Assembly: GCF_015354405.1 (NCBI RefSeq)
Contig: NZ_JADKYP010000009.1
Location: forward strand, 107,232 to 171,231
Reading direction: 5' to 3'
DNA length: 64,000 nucleotides
Source: Nocardia sp. BSTN01
GTDB taxonomy: Bacteria; Actinomycetota; Actinomycetes; Mycobacteriales; Mycobacteriaceae
In this document: positions 6,970 through 46,234 of the stretch, one piece after another
How the letters are laid out: each line of letters begins with the position of its first letter
Position numbering within the stretch: position 1 is the first letter of the stretch
Notes under the pieces: generated by a model
Database searches by the model: none
The model's input: the letters and a program-made list of their open reading frames with translations, nothing else
What the model was told of the DNA's origin: nothing
Position numbers and translations under genes: made by a program

Positions 6970-7953
6970 CTACACTCCCAGCGCCGGGGCGAAGACCGAC
7001 CACGAGTCGTGCAGATCGTCCTGCCAGTACACCCACGCGTGAGTGCCGTTGCGGTGCACGACAGTCGCCGGAATGCCCAGGGCGGCAAGGCGACCGGTGA
7101 GCTGTCCGGTGCAGGAGTCGACGACGCTCTCCATCACGCCGCCGATCGCGACCCGGTTGGCCAGCGCGCCCGCGTTGCCGCCGATCGAGGGATCGGCGAG
7201 GGTGTCGTGCGCGCCGGGCACCCCGTTACCCGAGGAGATGTAGAGGGCGGTTCCGCGCAGCCGATCGGCGTTCACCACCGGATCGTGAGCGGCCCAGTCC
7301 GGATCACCCGGTCCTCCCCACATATTCCCGGCATTCGCCCCGAAGACGCCGAGCTGCGAATACACGTACGCCTGCGGAATCGGGCCGTTGGTCAGCGGAC
7401 AACCGCTGTAGGCGCCGACCGCCTGGTACAGGCCCGGCGCCCCGATCGCCAGATCCAGTGACGAGGTCGCCGACATCGAGGTGCCCGCGACGGCATTGCG
7501 GCCCGTCATCTGGAACCGCGAGTTGAGCAGCGGCGGCAACTCCTGGGTCAAAAACGTCGTCCACTCGTTGCGGCCCAGCACCGGATCGTCGGACTTCCAG
7601 TCGGTGTAGTAACTGGCCCGCCCGCCCATCGGGACGATCACGTTCACCGGTTTGTCGGCGAAGAATTGCGCGACGTCGGTGCGGGTGGTCCACGGCCCGC
7701 CGTCCTCACCGCCGTCGACGGCGTTGAGCAGATACAGGGCCGGCGCCGCGAAATCCGGATGCGACATCCATACGGTGATCTGCTTGTTCATCGCCGCGGA
7801 ATAGACCACCACCGAATATTGGCGACCGCCCAGCGGATGGACGTCGACGATGGCGGGCCCGCCGGGATCTGCCGAGGCTACCGCGGGCACAATCGCGGCA
7901 ATCGAGGCGAAGGCGGCGAACAGGACAGCAAAACAGCGCGGAAGCCGGTGCAT
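6970..7953 (-). CDS. Secreted esterase of the antigen 85 / mycolyltransferase superfamily
   Basis: Exported alpha/beta hydrolase of 327 residues. The Sec signal peptide is clear (MHRLPRCFAVLFAAFASIAA, cleavage probably after ASA near residue 28). The nucleophile elbow GTSMSATS lies near residue 159, and the C-terminal histidine block GTHAWVYWQDDLHDSW matches the antigen 85 block that places the catalytic His beside a tryptophan. Antigen 85 proteins move mycolic acids onto trehalose and arabinogalactan. A cell-wall mycolyltransferase role is likely but not proven, since many family members are plain esterases. A second, related protein lies at 44295-45338. The ATG at 7953 is chosen because the signal peptide begins there. 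Confidence 0.8.
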   Translation of the reverse strand: MHRLPRCFAVLFAAFASIAAIVPAVASADPGGPAIVDVHPLGGRQYSVVVYSAAMNKQITVWMSHPDFAAPALYLLNAVDGGEDGGPWTTRTDVAQFFADKPVNVIVPMGGRASYYTDWKSDDPVLGRNEWTTFLTQELPPLLNSRFQMTGRNAVAGTSMSATSSLDLAIGAPGLYQAVGAYSGCPLTNGPIPQAYVYSQLGVFGANAGNMWGGPGDPDWAAHDPVVNADRLRGTALYISSGNGVPGAHDTLADPSIGGNAGALANRVAIGGVMESVVDSCTGQLTGRLAALGIPATVVHRNGTHAWVYWQDDLHDSWSVFAPALGV

Positions 7954-42360: not shown

Positions 42361-42812
42361 CACATCCCTCACGCCCGCTGCTGTCCCGCCGGGAAGACGA
42401 TGCCAGTACTTGCCCCACCGCACAACCGGAAGCCGCCCCCAGCGCTGGGAGGTACTCCTTGCCATCGACGCGCAACCTTGGCTACGGACAGTCGCCTGAG
42501 GCGCTGACGGCAATCATGCGGAGAACGTGTCGACCGCAACCAAAGTAATGCGCAATAGCTATTACTATCTGGAATCGATGCTCTGCTGACGCCGCCCCGG
42601 CGTGACCGCTCCGGACCACCCCGTCTCCCGCGCGCTCCGAAATTCCTCCATTCATCGCATCGGATTCATACATTTTTCGACCGTCGCGCATTTCCGCACC
42701 GGATTTCCCTACCGCCATCGCCGCATCGGTCGCCGCGACTGTAGACTCCGCCGCGGAAGAAATTGTGCGGACATATTCTCGCCCGCCGCACAATGGCCGG
42801 TCAGGAGTAATC
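42361..42812. other. Intergenic region between divergent membrane protein and WS/DGAT genes
   Basis: About 450 bp with no supported gene. It contains the palindrome CCCAGCGCTGGG (42438-42449), the near-palindrome at 42551-42566 listed separately, and an AT-richer stretch from 42640 to 42760 that may hold the WS/DGAT promoter (TAGACT at 42743-42748 is a possible -10). Confidence 0.4.
42551..42566. promoter_or_regulatory. Near-palindrome shared with the mce promoter
   Basis: CGCAATAGCTATTACT. The 13 nt CGCAATAGCTATT are identical to 61643-61655 in the yrbE-mce promoter, where the palindrome is perfect over 16 bp. It lies 247 bp upstream of the WS/DGAT start. Probably a binding site of a common regulator; the regulator is unknown. 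Confidence 0.5.
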
Positions 42813-44270
42813 ATGACGACGACAACGGTCCGCGCTGCGAGCAGCGGTCTCCACCTCACTGCCGAACAGCTGACGCCGCGCGATGCGGTATTCGTCTACG
42901 ACGAGTTCGAGCGGCACCCGTCGAATATCGTCGCCGCCTATGTCTTCGCCGGTGCGGCGGAACCGGAAGGCCGGTCGGTGAGCCGGGCCCAGGTGCGGGC
43001 CTGGATGCGGGAGCGGCTCGGTTACGCATCGCTGTTCCACCGCCGCGTGGAACGTGTACCGGGTGACGTCGACCTGCCGTACTGGGTTCCCGACCCCGGC
43101 TTCGACATCGATCATCACGTGACGATCGAGGAGCGCGCGTCGTGGTCCTGGGCCGAGGCGCGCGCTCGCCTGGCCGACATCGCCGCGGCGCGGATGGATC
43201 TCACCCGCCCGCCGTGGCAGCTGTACCTCTTCGACGGTGTGCGCGGATTTCCCGGGACCGCCGATCCGGTGACGATCGTGGTGCTGAAGTTCCATCACAG
43301 CGTCGGCGACGGTGTGGCCACCCGCGAACTCGAACGGAAACTGTTCGGCACCACGGACACTCATCCTCCGCTCCCTACGACCGATCGTCGCTGGTCGCAG
43401 CCGGGCGCGCTGATGCGCGCCGCCGCCGTCACACCGTATCGATTCACACGTTTCGTCTCCGGCGTGGCCCGCACGCGCGCGGCGGCACGCACGGTAGCAG
43501 CCAAGGCCGCGGAAAACCTGCTCCGCGAACCGATTCCGCTGCGGCCCGCCACGCGCTTCAATCGCCGCATCGGCACGGCACCCGTCTTCGATCTGGTCAC
43601 CCTGCCGCTCGCACAGGTCAAGGCGGCGACAGCTGCCTCCGCCGAGCGGGTCACGGTCAACGACCTGCTGCTGTCGGTCGTCTCGGGCGCTCTGTCGGCC
43701 TATCTTGCCGAGCAGGGCGAGACGCCGTCCGCATCGCTGGGCGCGATGGTGCCGATCTCGATGCGCGAACTCACGCAGTGGAATTCGGCGAATCAGCTGT
43801 GCCAGATGTCGGTGGACCTGCACACCGATCTCGCCGATCTGCTGGAACGCCTGTACGCCATCCGGAACTCCGCCCGGGAGGAGAAGCAGCGCTGGGCCGA
43901 TCCGGCGGTCATCGCCCGCGAGAGCCGTATGCAGACCTCACCCGCCTGGCTGTTGCGCCTGGCCGGATGGGCTCGCGCGCAGCGGGTTTTCGATGAGGTC
44001 GACACGGTGCCGCTGTCCAACACCACCGTCAGCAATGTGCCTCCGGTCGCGGACCGTCTGGAATTTCTCGGGGCACCGGTGATCAGCGTCTTCGGCGTAC
44101 TCCCGATCATGGACGGCGACGGGCTGCGGCATCTGATCACTTCTCAGGGCGATCAGGTGGTGATCGCGGTCAGCTCCGACGCCGACATGCTCCCGGACCC
44201 GGCGCGGTACGGCGAACTGCTGCTGCGCTCGTTCCGGGAGCTGAGTGAACGGCTCGCCACACACGGGTGA
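42813..44270 (+). CDS. WS/DGAT wax ester synthase / diacylglycerol O-acyltransferase
   Basis: Acyltransferase of 485 residues that forms triacylglycerol or wax esters from acyl-CoA. The active-site motif HHxxxDG is FHHSVGDGVATRE at ~161, preceded by the family LTRPPWQLYLFDG. The second conserved block is VNDLLLSVVSGALSAYL with LGAMVPISMR, and the C-terminal NVPPVADRLEFLGA is also typical. An AGGAG at 42803-42807 decides the ATG at 42813. Such enzymes build storage lipid droplets at the membrane. It is convergent with the mycolyltransferase-like gene and may be co-regulated with the mce operon. Confidence 0.9.
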   Translation: MTTTTVRAASSGLHLTAEQLTPRDAVFVYDEFERHPSNIVAAYVFAGAAEPEGRSVSRAQVRAWMRERLGYASLFHRRVERVPGDVDLPYWVPDPGFDIDHHVTIEERASWSWAEARARLADIAAARMDLTRPPWQLYLFDGVRGFPGTADPVTIVVLKFHHSVGDGVATRELERKLFGTTDTHPPLPTTDRRWSQPGALMRAAAVTPYRFTRFVSGVARTRAAARTVAAKAAENLLREPIPLRPATRFNRRIGTAPVFDLVTLPLAQVKAATAASAERVTVNDLLLSVVSGALSAYLAEQGETPSASLGAMVPISMRELTQWNSANQLCQMSVDLHTDLADLLERLYAIRNSAREEKQRWADPAVIARESRMQTSPAWLLRLAGWARAQRVFDEVDTVPLSNTTVSNVPPVADRLEFLGAPVISVFGVLPIMDGDGLRHLITSQGDQVVIAVSSDADMLPDPARYGELLLRSFRELSERLATHG

Positions 44271-44294: not shown

Positions 44295-45338
44295 TCAGTT
44301 CGCGCCGATCGCCGCCGCCATCATCGGCCAGGATTTGTGCAGGTCGTCCTGCCAGTAGCCCCACGAGTGGGTGCCCGCAGGATGGAAGGTGTAGGTGATG
44401 TCCGTGCGTCCGAGTTCCCGGGTGCGCTCGGCGAGTTTGGTCGTGCAGTAGTTCGCCGCCGATTCGATCCCGCCGCCGAGCAGGACCTGATTGGCCAGTA
44501 CCCCGGTGTTCGCGCGCACGCTCGGGTCGGCGAGACTGTCGTGCCGGCCGGGGAGTCCGCTCGCGCTGGAGATGTACATCGGAATCCGCGGCAGCCGGTC
44601 GGCGTGCAGATACGGATCGTGTGCCTTCCAGCCCTCACCTCCGACCGGTCCCCACATATTCGTCGCATCGCCCTTGCCCAGGCTGATCACCAGGCTGACG
44701 AACGACTGGCCGAGCGGATCGCTGGTCATCGCGCAACCGCTGTAGGCGGAGACGCTTCGATAGAGCGCCGGGGCCTCGATCGCCAGATCCAGCACCGAAG
44801 TACCGGCCATCGAGATGCCGGCCAGCGCATTGGCGCCGGTGGTGCCGAAGGCCGAATCGATCACGGGCGGAAGCTCGTCGGTGAGGAAGGTGGCCCACTT
44901 GTTCCGGCCGTTGTTCTTCAGTTTCTTCGCCAGGCCCGGGTCGTCGCGCTCCCAGTCGGTGTAGTAACTGAACGCGCCCTCCATCGGGATCACCACGTTG
45001 ACGTGTTTGTCGGCGAAGAAGTCCGCGGCATCGGTCTGCGCCAGCCAGGTCGCGGCGTCCTCGCCACCGCCGGCGCCGTTGAGCAGATACAGCGTGGGCG
45101 CCGGGGTACGGGAGTCCTTCGCGGGCAACACTTGCAGCGGGATGTCGCGATCCATCGCCGGCGAATGGACGCTGATCCGGAGTACACGCCCGGGGCCCGG
45201 GGTTTCACCGACGATATGCGCCGCGGGAGCGGCCGAACCGATCGGCGCGACCGACGTCCACAGCAGGGCGGCCGCACCGAGATATGCCACCAGCCAGGCG
45301 ATCCCGCGCACCGCGCCGGCCCTTTTACCGCTCGACAC
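44295..45338 (-). CDS. Secreted antigen-85-family mycolyltransferase-like protein
   Basis: Exported alpha/beta hydrolase of about 347 residues. A signal peptide or anchor (GIAWLVAYLGAAALLWTSVAP) occupies the N-terminus. The nucleophile elbow is LAGISMAGTSVLDLA (~175), and the histidine block GTHSWGYWQDDLHKSW (~323) matches the antigen 85 THSWxYW block better than the other copy at 6970-7953. Expected reaction: transfer of mycolic acid between trehalose and cell-wall or protein acceptors. GTG starts at 45338 or 45341 follow an AGAGG box. It is the third gene of a leftward operon behind two tiny peptide genes, which are candidate acceptors (inference). Confidence 0.82.
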   Translation of the reverse strand: MSSGKRAGAVRGIAWLVAYLGAAALLWTSVAPIGSAAPAAHIVGETPGPGRVLRISVHSPAMDRDIPLQVLPAKDSRTPAPTLYLLNGAGGGEDAATWLAQTDAADFFADKHVNVVIPMEGAFSYYTDWERDDPGLAKKLKNNGRNKWATFLTDELPPVIDSAFGTTGANALAGISMAGTSVLDLAIEAPALYRSVSAYSGCAMTSDPLGQSFVSLVISLGKGDATNMWGPVGGEGWKAHDPYLHADRLPRIPMYISSASGLPGRHDSLADPSVRANTGVLANQVLLGGGIESAANYCTTKLAERTRELGRTDITYTFHPAGTHSWGYWQDDLHKSWPMMAAAIGAN

Positions 45339-45361
45339 CACAACCACCTCTACACAGCACT

Positions 45362-45394
45362 GTGGGGGCGCACCCGGTTCGAGTGAGCCCCCAC
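45362..45394 (-). other. Stem-loop between the small peptide genes and the mycolyltransferase-like gene
   Basis: GTGGGGGC (45362-45369) and GCCCCCAC (45387-45394) form a perfect 8-bp stem with a 17-nt loop. Read leftward there is no T-run after it, so it may be a partial terminator or an mRNA-stability element allowing far more peptide than enzyme to be made. Confidence 0.5.
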
Positions 45395-45408
45395 CATCGA
45401 CGACTGGA

Positions 45409-45525
45409 TTATTTTCCGGCGGCCGGGGTGCCACCACTGAGGGTGATGAGCGCATTCACGATGGTGGTTCCGACCGAACCGGCGCTCTGCGTGCCCATTC
45501 CCAGAATATCGATGAGCGATCCCAT
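45409..45525 (-). CDS. Small peptide 2 of the mycolyltransferase operon (38 aa)
   Basis: Unrecognised protein of 38 residues: MGSLIDILGMGTQSAGSVGT, continuing TIVNALITLSGGTPAAGK. There is no signal peptide and no charged core. It has two amphipathic or hydrophobic stretches with five serines and five threonines, and a single Lys at the end. AGGAG (complement of 45533-45537) is well placed before the ATG. It shares the beginning MGSxxD(I/L)L with the peptide encoded just upstream. Features resemble the very short PorA/PorH/ProtX mycolated proteins of corynebacteria, which also lack signal peptides; homology cannot be claimed. Coding is supported by the ribosome binding site and the paired layout. 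Confidence 0.6.
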   Translation of the reverse strand: MGSLIDILGMGTQSAGSVGTTIVNALITLSGGTPAAGK

Positions 45526-45595
45526 ACTTTTCTCCTAAATATCCGTGCACCGAGTTACCGCGCGCAACTCGATGAATACGAGCGTTTTCGTCGAA

Positions 45596-45709
45596 TTACT
45601 TGACGATGCTTCCGAGCGAACCGAGGAAGGTTTCCCACAGCCCGTCACCCGCAACTGCGGAACCCAGGGCCGGAATCAACGCGGTAAGCAAGTCGCCCAT
45701 CGAACCCAT
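45596..45709 (-). CDS. Small peptide 1 of the mycolyltransferase operon (37 aa)
   Basis: Unrecognised protein of 37 residues: MGSMGDLLTALIPALGSAVA, continuing GDGLWETFLGSLGSIVK. A strong AAAGGAG (complement of 45718-45724) stands 8 nt before the ATG, and a good promoter lies at 45809-45837. The sequence can form an amphipathic helix with repeated L-G-S motifs, two acidic residues near its middle and a terminal Lys. It lacks a signal peptide. Together with the next gene it forms a tandem of short paralogue-like peptides ahead of a secreted mycolyltransferase-like enzyme. A pore-forming or cell-envelope role modified by mycolate is the working guess, not shown by sequence. Confidence 0.62.
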   Translation of the reverse strand: MGSMGDLLTALIPALGSAVAGDGLWETFLGSLGSIVK

Positions 45710-45808
45710 CGATGAATCTCCTTTGTGAGCGTGTTCAATCGCCTCTCAGTCGCCGGAATCACGCCTGAGAGTTATCGGTCACGGCCGGTACCGGTTAGTG
45801 ACCGAGGC

Positions 45809-45837
45809 AACATATCAAGCGTCCACTTTTCAAGCAA
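45809..45837 (-). promoter_or_regulatory. Promoter of the small-peptide/mycolyltransferase operon
   Basis: Minus strand: TTGCTT (45837-45832), 17-bp spacer, TATGTT (45814-45809). Transcription would start near 45802, giving a leader of about 93 nt before the first peptide gene. Confidence 0.6.
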
Positions 45838-46234
45838 GCACCTCCTCTAAAACCGGAAGCCGCTTCACTACCGCTTTGTAGCTATTTTCCAGCAACTTCC
45901 AGACAGAATCGGTTACCTCGAACCGGAACCGAGTCCGCCGCGCACACCGCACGCCAGTCGGCGAGTTGCCTTGCTCGACAACACGTTTCAATTCCGATCG
46001 GAAGTTTCAGCTTTCGCGGAACCGAGTACAGGGTGCACCCGCGACATCGCTCGCCGGCCTCGACCGGTCCGCGAGACACTTCGTTTTGCTAGGAAATTTT
46101 TTTCGGAACCCGCCGGAGACACGACACACCCCGGGAATCGGGCGCACAACGCCGCTCGAGACCGGTGATCCCGGCCGCGCCATCCGCGAACCGGAACTGG
46201 AACTGGAGTTCTCGGGGGTGTGATCGACGACTGT
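45838..46234. other. Gap upstream of the small-peptide operon
   Basis: About 400 bp, AT-richer than its surroundings. It contains TAGCTATT (45879-45886), a partial copy of the mce-type palindrome core; the 12-bp palindrome TTCCGATCGGAA (45992-46003); and a T7 run at 46097-46103 region. A 65-codon frame on the minus strand (45882-46079) has no ribosome binding site and I do not call it. Confidence 0.4.

Follow-up and report, generated by a model that had tools for sequence, protein, structure and literature searches.

Small envelope proteins devoid of a classical signal peptide, which receive a mycolate on a serine residue, are a feature of Corynebacterium, the only genus for which protein O-mycoloylation is documented in the literature examined, as far as the available portions of the papers cited here extend. 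The mycoloyltransferase MytC alone mycoloylates PorA in vitro with trehalose monomycolate as the donor (PMC11927696), the modified residue of PorA being Ser15 (PMC5310785), and PorH assembles at the surface only with PorA, at least one of these partners having to be mycoloylated; their export route is described as unknown (PMC12632848). ProtX of C. glutamicum is mycoloylated too, at a site studied with the S37A mutant (PMC5310785), and loses this modification in the mytC mutant (PMC11927696). With respect to the site, serine residues near Gly or Ala are preferred (PMC11066868). In Mycobacteria, Nocardia and Tsukamurella, every pore is reported to consist of MspA-like polypeptides with a mass of about 20 kDa (PMC9233653). 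The present analysis deals with an operon from Nocardia sp. BSTN01, located in a stretch of 64 kb of genomic DNA (the window), which encodes two peptides of 37 and 38 residues, P1 and P2, followed by a mycoloyltransferase. This three-gene unit probably works like the PorH/PorA-MytC system, to judge by analogy, and lies outside the PorH and PorA families. A literature search, from which subscription papers largely fell outside, retrieved no report of such peptides in Nocardia or Rhodococcus in the available texts.

The first-pass annotation of the locus had described a TTGCTT-17-TATGTT promoter, two short genes with strong ribosome-binding sites (RBSs) and signal-less products starting with MGSxxD, and a stem-loop ahead of the enzyme gene, and all of these elements were found as described, the promoter recurring in other species (Table 1). 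Computation establishes P1 and P2 as real, conserved genes under selection. The window holds 8 ATG open reading frames (ORFs) of 25-80 amino acids with a Shine-Dalgarno (SD) core just upstream, among which P1 and P2 contain 3% Arg plus Lys, as compared to 10-24% in the other six. This low content, the recurrence of the frames, their spacing and their promoter elsewhere, and the pooled ratios of non-synonymous to synonymous variation (pN/pS), 0.27 for P1 and 0.29 for P2, argue that both are more than chance ORFs. The purifying selection which the first-pass annotation had proposed to look for is thus apparent on both frames, with pN lower than pS in 368 of 369 P1 pairs and 659 of 660 P2 pairs, where the members of each pair have the same length and an identity of 60% or more, and where the pairs are non-independent and drawn from peptide sets picked by motif patterns. 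Both peptides are Gly-rich and, with net charges of -2 (P1) and 0 (P2), not cationic. The AlphaFold model of P1 comprises two helices, 4-22 and 24-36, at moderate confidence (predicted local distance difference test, pLDDT, 74.5; predicted template modelling score 0.30). P1 and P2 have only the MGSL start in common (hhalign probability 40%), and neither gave a match in Pfam or NCBIfam at E up to 10, nor a credible match in the PDB.

When P1 was used as a tblastn query on 60 relatives, 34 genomes yielded a match at E up to 1, including 17 at 1.8e-4 or better which all belong to the window's own genus; the rest are weak and mostly located inside long frames, as are those from the 24 relatives that belong to other families within the order (best E 0.049). 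The order P1-P2-enzyme is kept in 16 of the 17 own-genus loci. The exception, G001, carries P1 alone (L154, 4486-4605, reverse strand): its RBS is weak, neither P2 nor the enzyme was seen across the 9-kb stretch, and it is possibly a remnant. Profile searches of 401 genomes of the family matched P2 in 50 genomes and P1 in 70, from which 16 weak P1 matches were excluded, 15 of them inside frames of at least 366 amino acids; the exclusion of the sixteenth, a partial match of G145 within a 55-amino-acid MGS ORF with an SD sequence and no P2 match, was too strict. Of the 54 remaining genomes, 48 are common to P2. Accordingly, P1 accompanies 48 of the 50 P2 matches, at a distance of at most 400 bp in all 48, the P2 matches of G108 and G351 being partial, devoid of P1 and probably due to chance. 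Two of the six P1-only genomes (G068 and G267) nonetheless carry a P2-like ORF below threshold.

The pairing, likewise established by computation, is readily seen in a set of named loci, all fetched via the P2 motif, which includes several strains of one species and overlaps with the 401-genome set. Its 35 contigs comprise 31 Nocardia records together with Rhodococcus spelaei, R. maanshanensis, Speluncibacter jeojiensis and Prescottella subtropica. P1 lies upstream of P2 in 35/35 of these loci, with a gap of mostly 63-78 bp in Nocardia. The occurrence of the pair in Nocardia, Rhodococcus, Prescottella and Speluncibacter answers favourably the conservation check suggested by the first-pass annotation.

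Depending on the locus, the number of short genes varies. Several Nocardia loci (L016, L101, L156, L157, L158 and L161) carry a duplicated pair ahead of what is, within the fetched stretch, a single enzyme gene. In genus g31, locus L150 (3232-6932) contains eight signal-less, SD-led ORFs forming four pairs with gaps of 96-115 bp, and the short-ORF arrays of this genus (L150, and also L151, L089, L095 and L097) exhibit MGS, MAS, MSS or MTS starts, strong SD sequences and interspersed mycoloyltransferase genes. No credible match was obtained for the L150 ORFs, seven of the eight being scanned against NCBIfam and six against Pfam. Additional SD-led MGS ORFs of 37-55 amino acids occur in genera g25 and g35 (L147, 3185-3352 and 3719-3877, reverse strand; L145, L146 and L148), for which the filters used picked up neither a P2-like partner nor a mycoloyltransferase. 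Within the own genome, the SD-ATGGGNTCN pattern, a search limited to that form of RBS, gave 8 matches corresponding to P1, P2, five starts of 120-414-amino-acid frames and one doubtful 30-amino-acid ORF, MGSFGLDLGVGFTAAVKWIELMFGIDLGVH (L165, start about 1515, plus strand), with AGGAG 9 bases before the ATG.

The pair is closely linked to its enzyme. A mycoloyltransferase gene occurs downstream of P1-P2 in 35/35 named loci, with at least 60% identity in 33 of them, and the orthologues from Nocardia genomes possessing the pair are at least 64% identical. When the enzyme was searched for in 25 genomes of the same genus devoid of the pair, 19 showed matches with E values of 1e-98 or better, whose identity never exceeded 57%, and six yielded no match; these genomes consist of 20 without either profile match, four without P1 in the single-sequence search only, and G001 with its orphan P1. 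The enzyme orthologue and the pair are therefore present or absent together, in agreement with the co-occurrence anticipated by the first-pass annotation.

The class of the enzyme, also established by computation, differs somewhat from the initial description of an antigen-85-like protein with SMAG and THSW motifs: the motifs stand (GISMAG and THSW), and by sequence the protein is nearer to MytC/Cmt1 than to antigen 85 (Ag85). Its likely start is the GTG at 45341 (or 45338), five bases 3' of AGAGG, the position 45341 being the analyst's choice over the alternative start in the ORF list, 45455, which would overlap P2. An N-terminal hydrophobic stretch is modelled as a helix (16-29) at low pLDDT. 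The catalytic triad S178/E294/H326, numbered from the codon at 45344, corresponds to S189/E310/H341 of MytC. Comparison with solved structures gave E values of 8.6e-69 for Cmt1, 1.9e-41 for PS1 and 2.4e-27 for Ag85A, and Cmt1/MytC, the best solved relative, occupies Foldseek ranks 1-5. In a tree of 59 rows (57 picked from 116 ORFs plus two references and no Ag85 row, built by a quick method with midpoint rooting), 22 operonic enzymes form one fully supported clade within a 33-row group containing Cmt1 (support 99), with PS1 outside. Both the tree and the E values thus place the enzyme with MytC rather than with MytA/Ag85. The stretch preceding the catalytic Glu counts 32 residues in this enzyme and 32-36 in 22/22 operonic enzymes, as compared to 37 in Cmt1/MytC and 24 in PS1/MytA, an extension likewise found in some paralogues; this stretch may correspond to the MytC-specific loop named in PMC5310785. 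A second mycoloyltransferase clade (type-B; 17 rows, support 100) possesses a short, MytA-like stretch of 25 residues in 17/17, and adjoins the peptides in Rhodococcus-type genera, either alone or after a MytC-like enzyme. A further mycoloyltransferase gene of the window (6973-7911, minus strand) shares 50% identity with its operonic counterpart, and no SD-led MGS ORF was seen within 1.5 kb of it.

Taken by analogy with Corynebacterium, the operon would encode a two-component mycomembrane mini-protein pair together with a dedicated acylating enzyme, a reading to which we assign a probability of roughly 0.6. It is supported by the P1-P2-enzyme linkage, the purifying selection and the likeness of the enzyme to MytC in its triad and pre-Glu stretch, and also by the small size, the lack of signal peptide and the tandem order matching PorH-PorA, in conjunction with the ability of MytC to act alone on PorA. 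The three genes would be co-transcribed, and P1 and P2, lacking a classical signal peptide, would pass through the plasma membrane as PorA, PorH and ProtX do, to meet the secreted mycoloyltransferase in the envelope. The S178-E294-H326 triad would take a mycolate from trehalose monomycolate and pass it to a conserved Ser of each peptide, the candidate sites being Ser31 (LGS) or Ser3 of P1, and Ser30 (LSGG) or Ser3 of P2. Both helical peptides would then be anchored in the mycomembrane by the lipid and could assemble there jointly, perhaps into a small pore. With respect to these sites, the invariant Ser residues are S3 and S31 (within Gly-Ser, LGS) in a 20-row alignment of P1, and S3 and S30 in both a 20-row and a 13-row alignment of P2, the rows of the 20-row alignments having been picked by eye near profile hits, with the ASGGTP and VSGGTP endings left out of those of P2. 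The Ser-Gly of P2 is constant and Leu-Ser-Gly-Gly occurs in 31 of 41 distinct sequences, counts which reflect their construction since the sequences were motif-picked. A conserved Ser among small residues, suitable as a possible mycoloylation site, is accordingly found in each peptide, a weak indication as many peptides hold such a Ser. P1 and P2 are probably O-mycoloylated by their own enzyme. The interpretation put forward by the first-pass annotation, namely that the peptides are substrates of the adjacent enzyme, comes out strengthened as the best available one; it is partly supported, its biochemical core resting on analogy.

Other explanations of the same gene order have to be considered. 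P1 and P2 might be mycomembrane or cell-wall peptides on which the adjacent enzyme does not act; the gene order would then reflect envelope biogenesis being regulated in common, and trehalose dimycolate or mycolated arabinogalactan would be the product of the enzyme, an explanation we hold to be unlikely, though deserving of attention. The fold comparison fails to separate MytC from Ag85; the genome contains about nine paralogues at 48-54% identity to the operonic enzyme, no SD-led MGS peptide being seen within 1.5 kb of its other mycoloyltransferases; and in two named loci the pair lies beside another type of mycoloyltransferase. These observations, which suit a non-substrate role, weigh against the mycoloylation of P1 and P2 by the adjacent enzyme, and so does the 32-residue pre-Glu stretch of 7 out of 18 own-genome rows. 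The branch of Cmt1 is unplaced within its 33-row group, and the own paralogue L066 ties with the operonic enzyme in closeness to Cmt1, so that one-to-one orthology with MytC is at most a possibility. However, the orthologue is missing in 25/25 genomes devoid of the pair, a co-occurrence which a housekeeping transferase would not need, and the near-MytC length of the pre-Glu stretch is kept in all 22 operonic enzymes aligned.

It is decidedly improbable that P1 and P2 are cytosolic or inner-membrane helpers, e.g., factors that regulate or chaperone either the mycoloyltransferase or the wax ester synthase/diacylglycerol acyltransferase (WS/DGAT) encoded next to it, instead of envelope building blocks. 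Such a role would accord with the lack of signal peptide and with the WS/DGAT homologue present in 33/35 named loci, but this gene switches side and orientation and was not found in the 7-kb stretches of five g44 loci, and the duplicated pairs with one enzyme gene seen in several Nocardia loci are those expected of structural products. Two small, Gly-rich, helical peptides encoded in tandem behind strong RBSs also evoke a secreted two-peptide system, bacteriocin-like or for signalling, in which the esterase-fold enzyme would serve as a processing or immunity factor; short of a systematic search of the neighbouring genes for exporters, this idea is hardly tenable in view of the lack of an obvious double-glycine leader, the net charges of the peptides, the mycoloyltransferase invariably located downstream in the named loci, and the absence of anything but weak P1 matches in long frames from the 24 genomes that represent other families within the order. 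A mini-protein pair acylated by its own enzyme remains the preferred reading.

Table 1. Features of the operon and associated genes. Coordinates are positions in the 64-kb window, the operon elements being on the minus strand; those of the last row refer to other loci.
Feature	Position	Strand	Description and basis
P1, operon gene 1	45596..45709	(-)	37 amino acids, MGSMGDLLTALIPALGSAVAGDGLWETFLGSLGSIVK, no signal peptide by eye
P2, operon gene 2	45409..45525	(-)	38 amino acids, MGSLIDILGMGTQSAGSVGTTIVNALITLSGGTPAAGK, no signal peptide by eye, C-terminal LSGGTP
Mycoloyltransferase, MytC-containing clade, presumably secreted	44295..45341	(-)	Sequence, tree, fold
-35 element TTGCTT	45832..45837	(-)	Sequence; recurrence in relatives
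-10 element TATGTT, 17 bp from -35	45809..45814	(-)	Sequence; recurrence in relatives
Inverted repeat GGTCAC-N15-GTGACC, just past promoter	45777..45803	strand-neutral	Possible operator or 5' untranslated region hairpin
Second 5' untranslated region hairpin CTCTCAG...CTGAGAG, upstream of P1 RBS	45743..45771	(-)	Some compensatory changes in relatives
P1 RBS AAAGGAG	45718..45724	(-)	Sequence
P2 RBS AGGAG	45532..45536	(-)	Sequence
Stem-loop between P2 and enzyme gene, without T run	45363..45393	(-)	Sequence
WS/DGAT family gene, convergent neighbour	42765..44270	(+)	
Second-clade mycoloyltransferases	L084; L093 (reverse strand); L133 6026-7222; L134 5891-7306; L135 5199-6371; L136 5000-6163		

In most of the Nocardia loci examined, P1 is preceded at about 125 bp by a TTG...TATGTT promoter, which does not occur in a sub-group with duplicated pairs, e.g., L157, L158 and L161. 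The exact GTCAC-N-GTGAC repeat is present in 35 of 62 distinct upstream regions (between -88 and -102 in 29, elsewhere in six), as compared to 0.6% of mononucleotide-shuffled regions, a contrast inflated by kinship. In a 14-sequence Nocardia alignment, the arms of the inverted repeat hardly vary and the repeat therefore suits an operator, and the second hairpin displays some compensatory changes as well as broken pairs. From the sequence, both elements suggest a control at the level of either the DNA or the 5' untranslated region. As a key to a regulon the inverted repeat was discarded, GGTCAC-N10-16-GTGACC occurring at 26 places of the own genome, too many to be informative. The WS/DGAT homologue (44-94% identity) of the named loci lies on either side of the operon in either orientation, and was not found in L114, where the contig ends, or in L135.

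Through this operon, the question of whether Nocardia and Rhodococcus possess protein mycoloylation and tiny paired envelope proteins can be put with named genes. If the proposed reading is true, paired mini-proteins would undergo O-mycoloylation widely among mycolate bacteria, rather than as a speciality of Corynebacterium, and two unrelated peptide families would share one signal-independent export route; P1 and P2 would add to the corynebacterial peptides another group of candidate substrates, unrelated to them, with which to find out what the enzyme and the export route recognize. There is an even chance that Nocardia- and Rhodococcus-type bacteria own independently evolved pairs of signal-less mini-proteins anchored by mycolate, with a protein mycoloyltransferase dedicated to them at every locus and an expansion to four different pairs in one locus of one genus.

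Compared with the known systems, the NfpA/NfpB porins of Nocardia farcinica, which form an MspA-like channel (PMC5310785), resemble P1-P2 as a two-gene system of Nocardia, but they are Sec-exported proteins of about 20 kDa, whereas P1 and P2 are short and signal-less, with neither a Sec signal nor an MspA domain among Pfam matches at E up to 10. ProtX, compared by description only, shares with P1 and P2 its size of 38 residues and the lack of a classical signal (PMC5310785, available text); unlike P1-P2, it is described as a single gene. MytC/Cmt1 of C. glutamicum (PDB codes 4h18 and 8qhf) exhibits 41% identity with the operonic enzyme, together with the same triad, Cys pair, long pre-Glu stretch and larger clade, the Cys pair occurring also in type-B enzymes and most paralogues. 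In contrast to MytC/Cmt1, the operonic enzymes come with peptide genes and build up a sub-clade of their own, which is fully supported.

The PorH-PorA proteins of Corynebacterium (NF033938/NF033937 and NF033925) share with P1-P2 tandem genes, signal-less peptides (34-66 amino acids), strong RBSs and mycolate-bearing hosts. A PorA sequence used as a probe gave a match at E up to 1 in 12 of 61 g24 genomes, and a short ORF follows a PorH-like ORF in 6 of the 9 g24 loci examined, with gaps of 52-131 bp; in NCBIfam, the first g24 pair scores above the cut-off for PorH (NF033938), and at 44.7 bits, below the cut-off of 50, for PorA (NF033925). The family-wide model search, which covered porH_2, identified 13 of the 401 genomes, all from g24, 9 of them over the cut-off and none with a P1-P2 pair, and among 14 control genomes the model matched C. 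glutamicum only. As porH_2 is confined to g24 and this control, g24 is very probably Corynebacterium. Homology of P1 and P2 to PorA or PorH was not found at this sensitivity (hhalign probabilities below 1%, no NCBIfam match at E up to 10), which upholds the statement of the first-pass annotation that the peptides are not recognizably homologous to them. The corynebacterial genes sit between groEL2 and ppk2 (PMC5944148, available text), not beside a mycoloyltransferase as P1-P2 do. Despite the lack of sequence or profile similarity, P1 is predicted as two helices, as is PorA (PMC11927696), and the modified Ser of PorA stands in a Leu-Ser invariant in 9 rows, where P2 has an invariant Ser-Gly, mostly within Leu-Ser-Gly-Gly. 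The conserved operon suggests an unrelated counterpart of the lipid-anchored outer-membrane mini-proteins of Corynebacterium, and P1-P2 is, on the best reading, an analogue and not a homologue of PorH/PorA.

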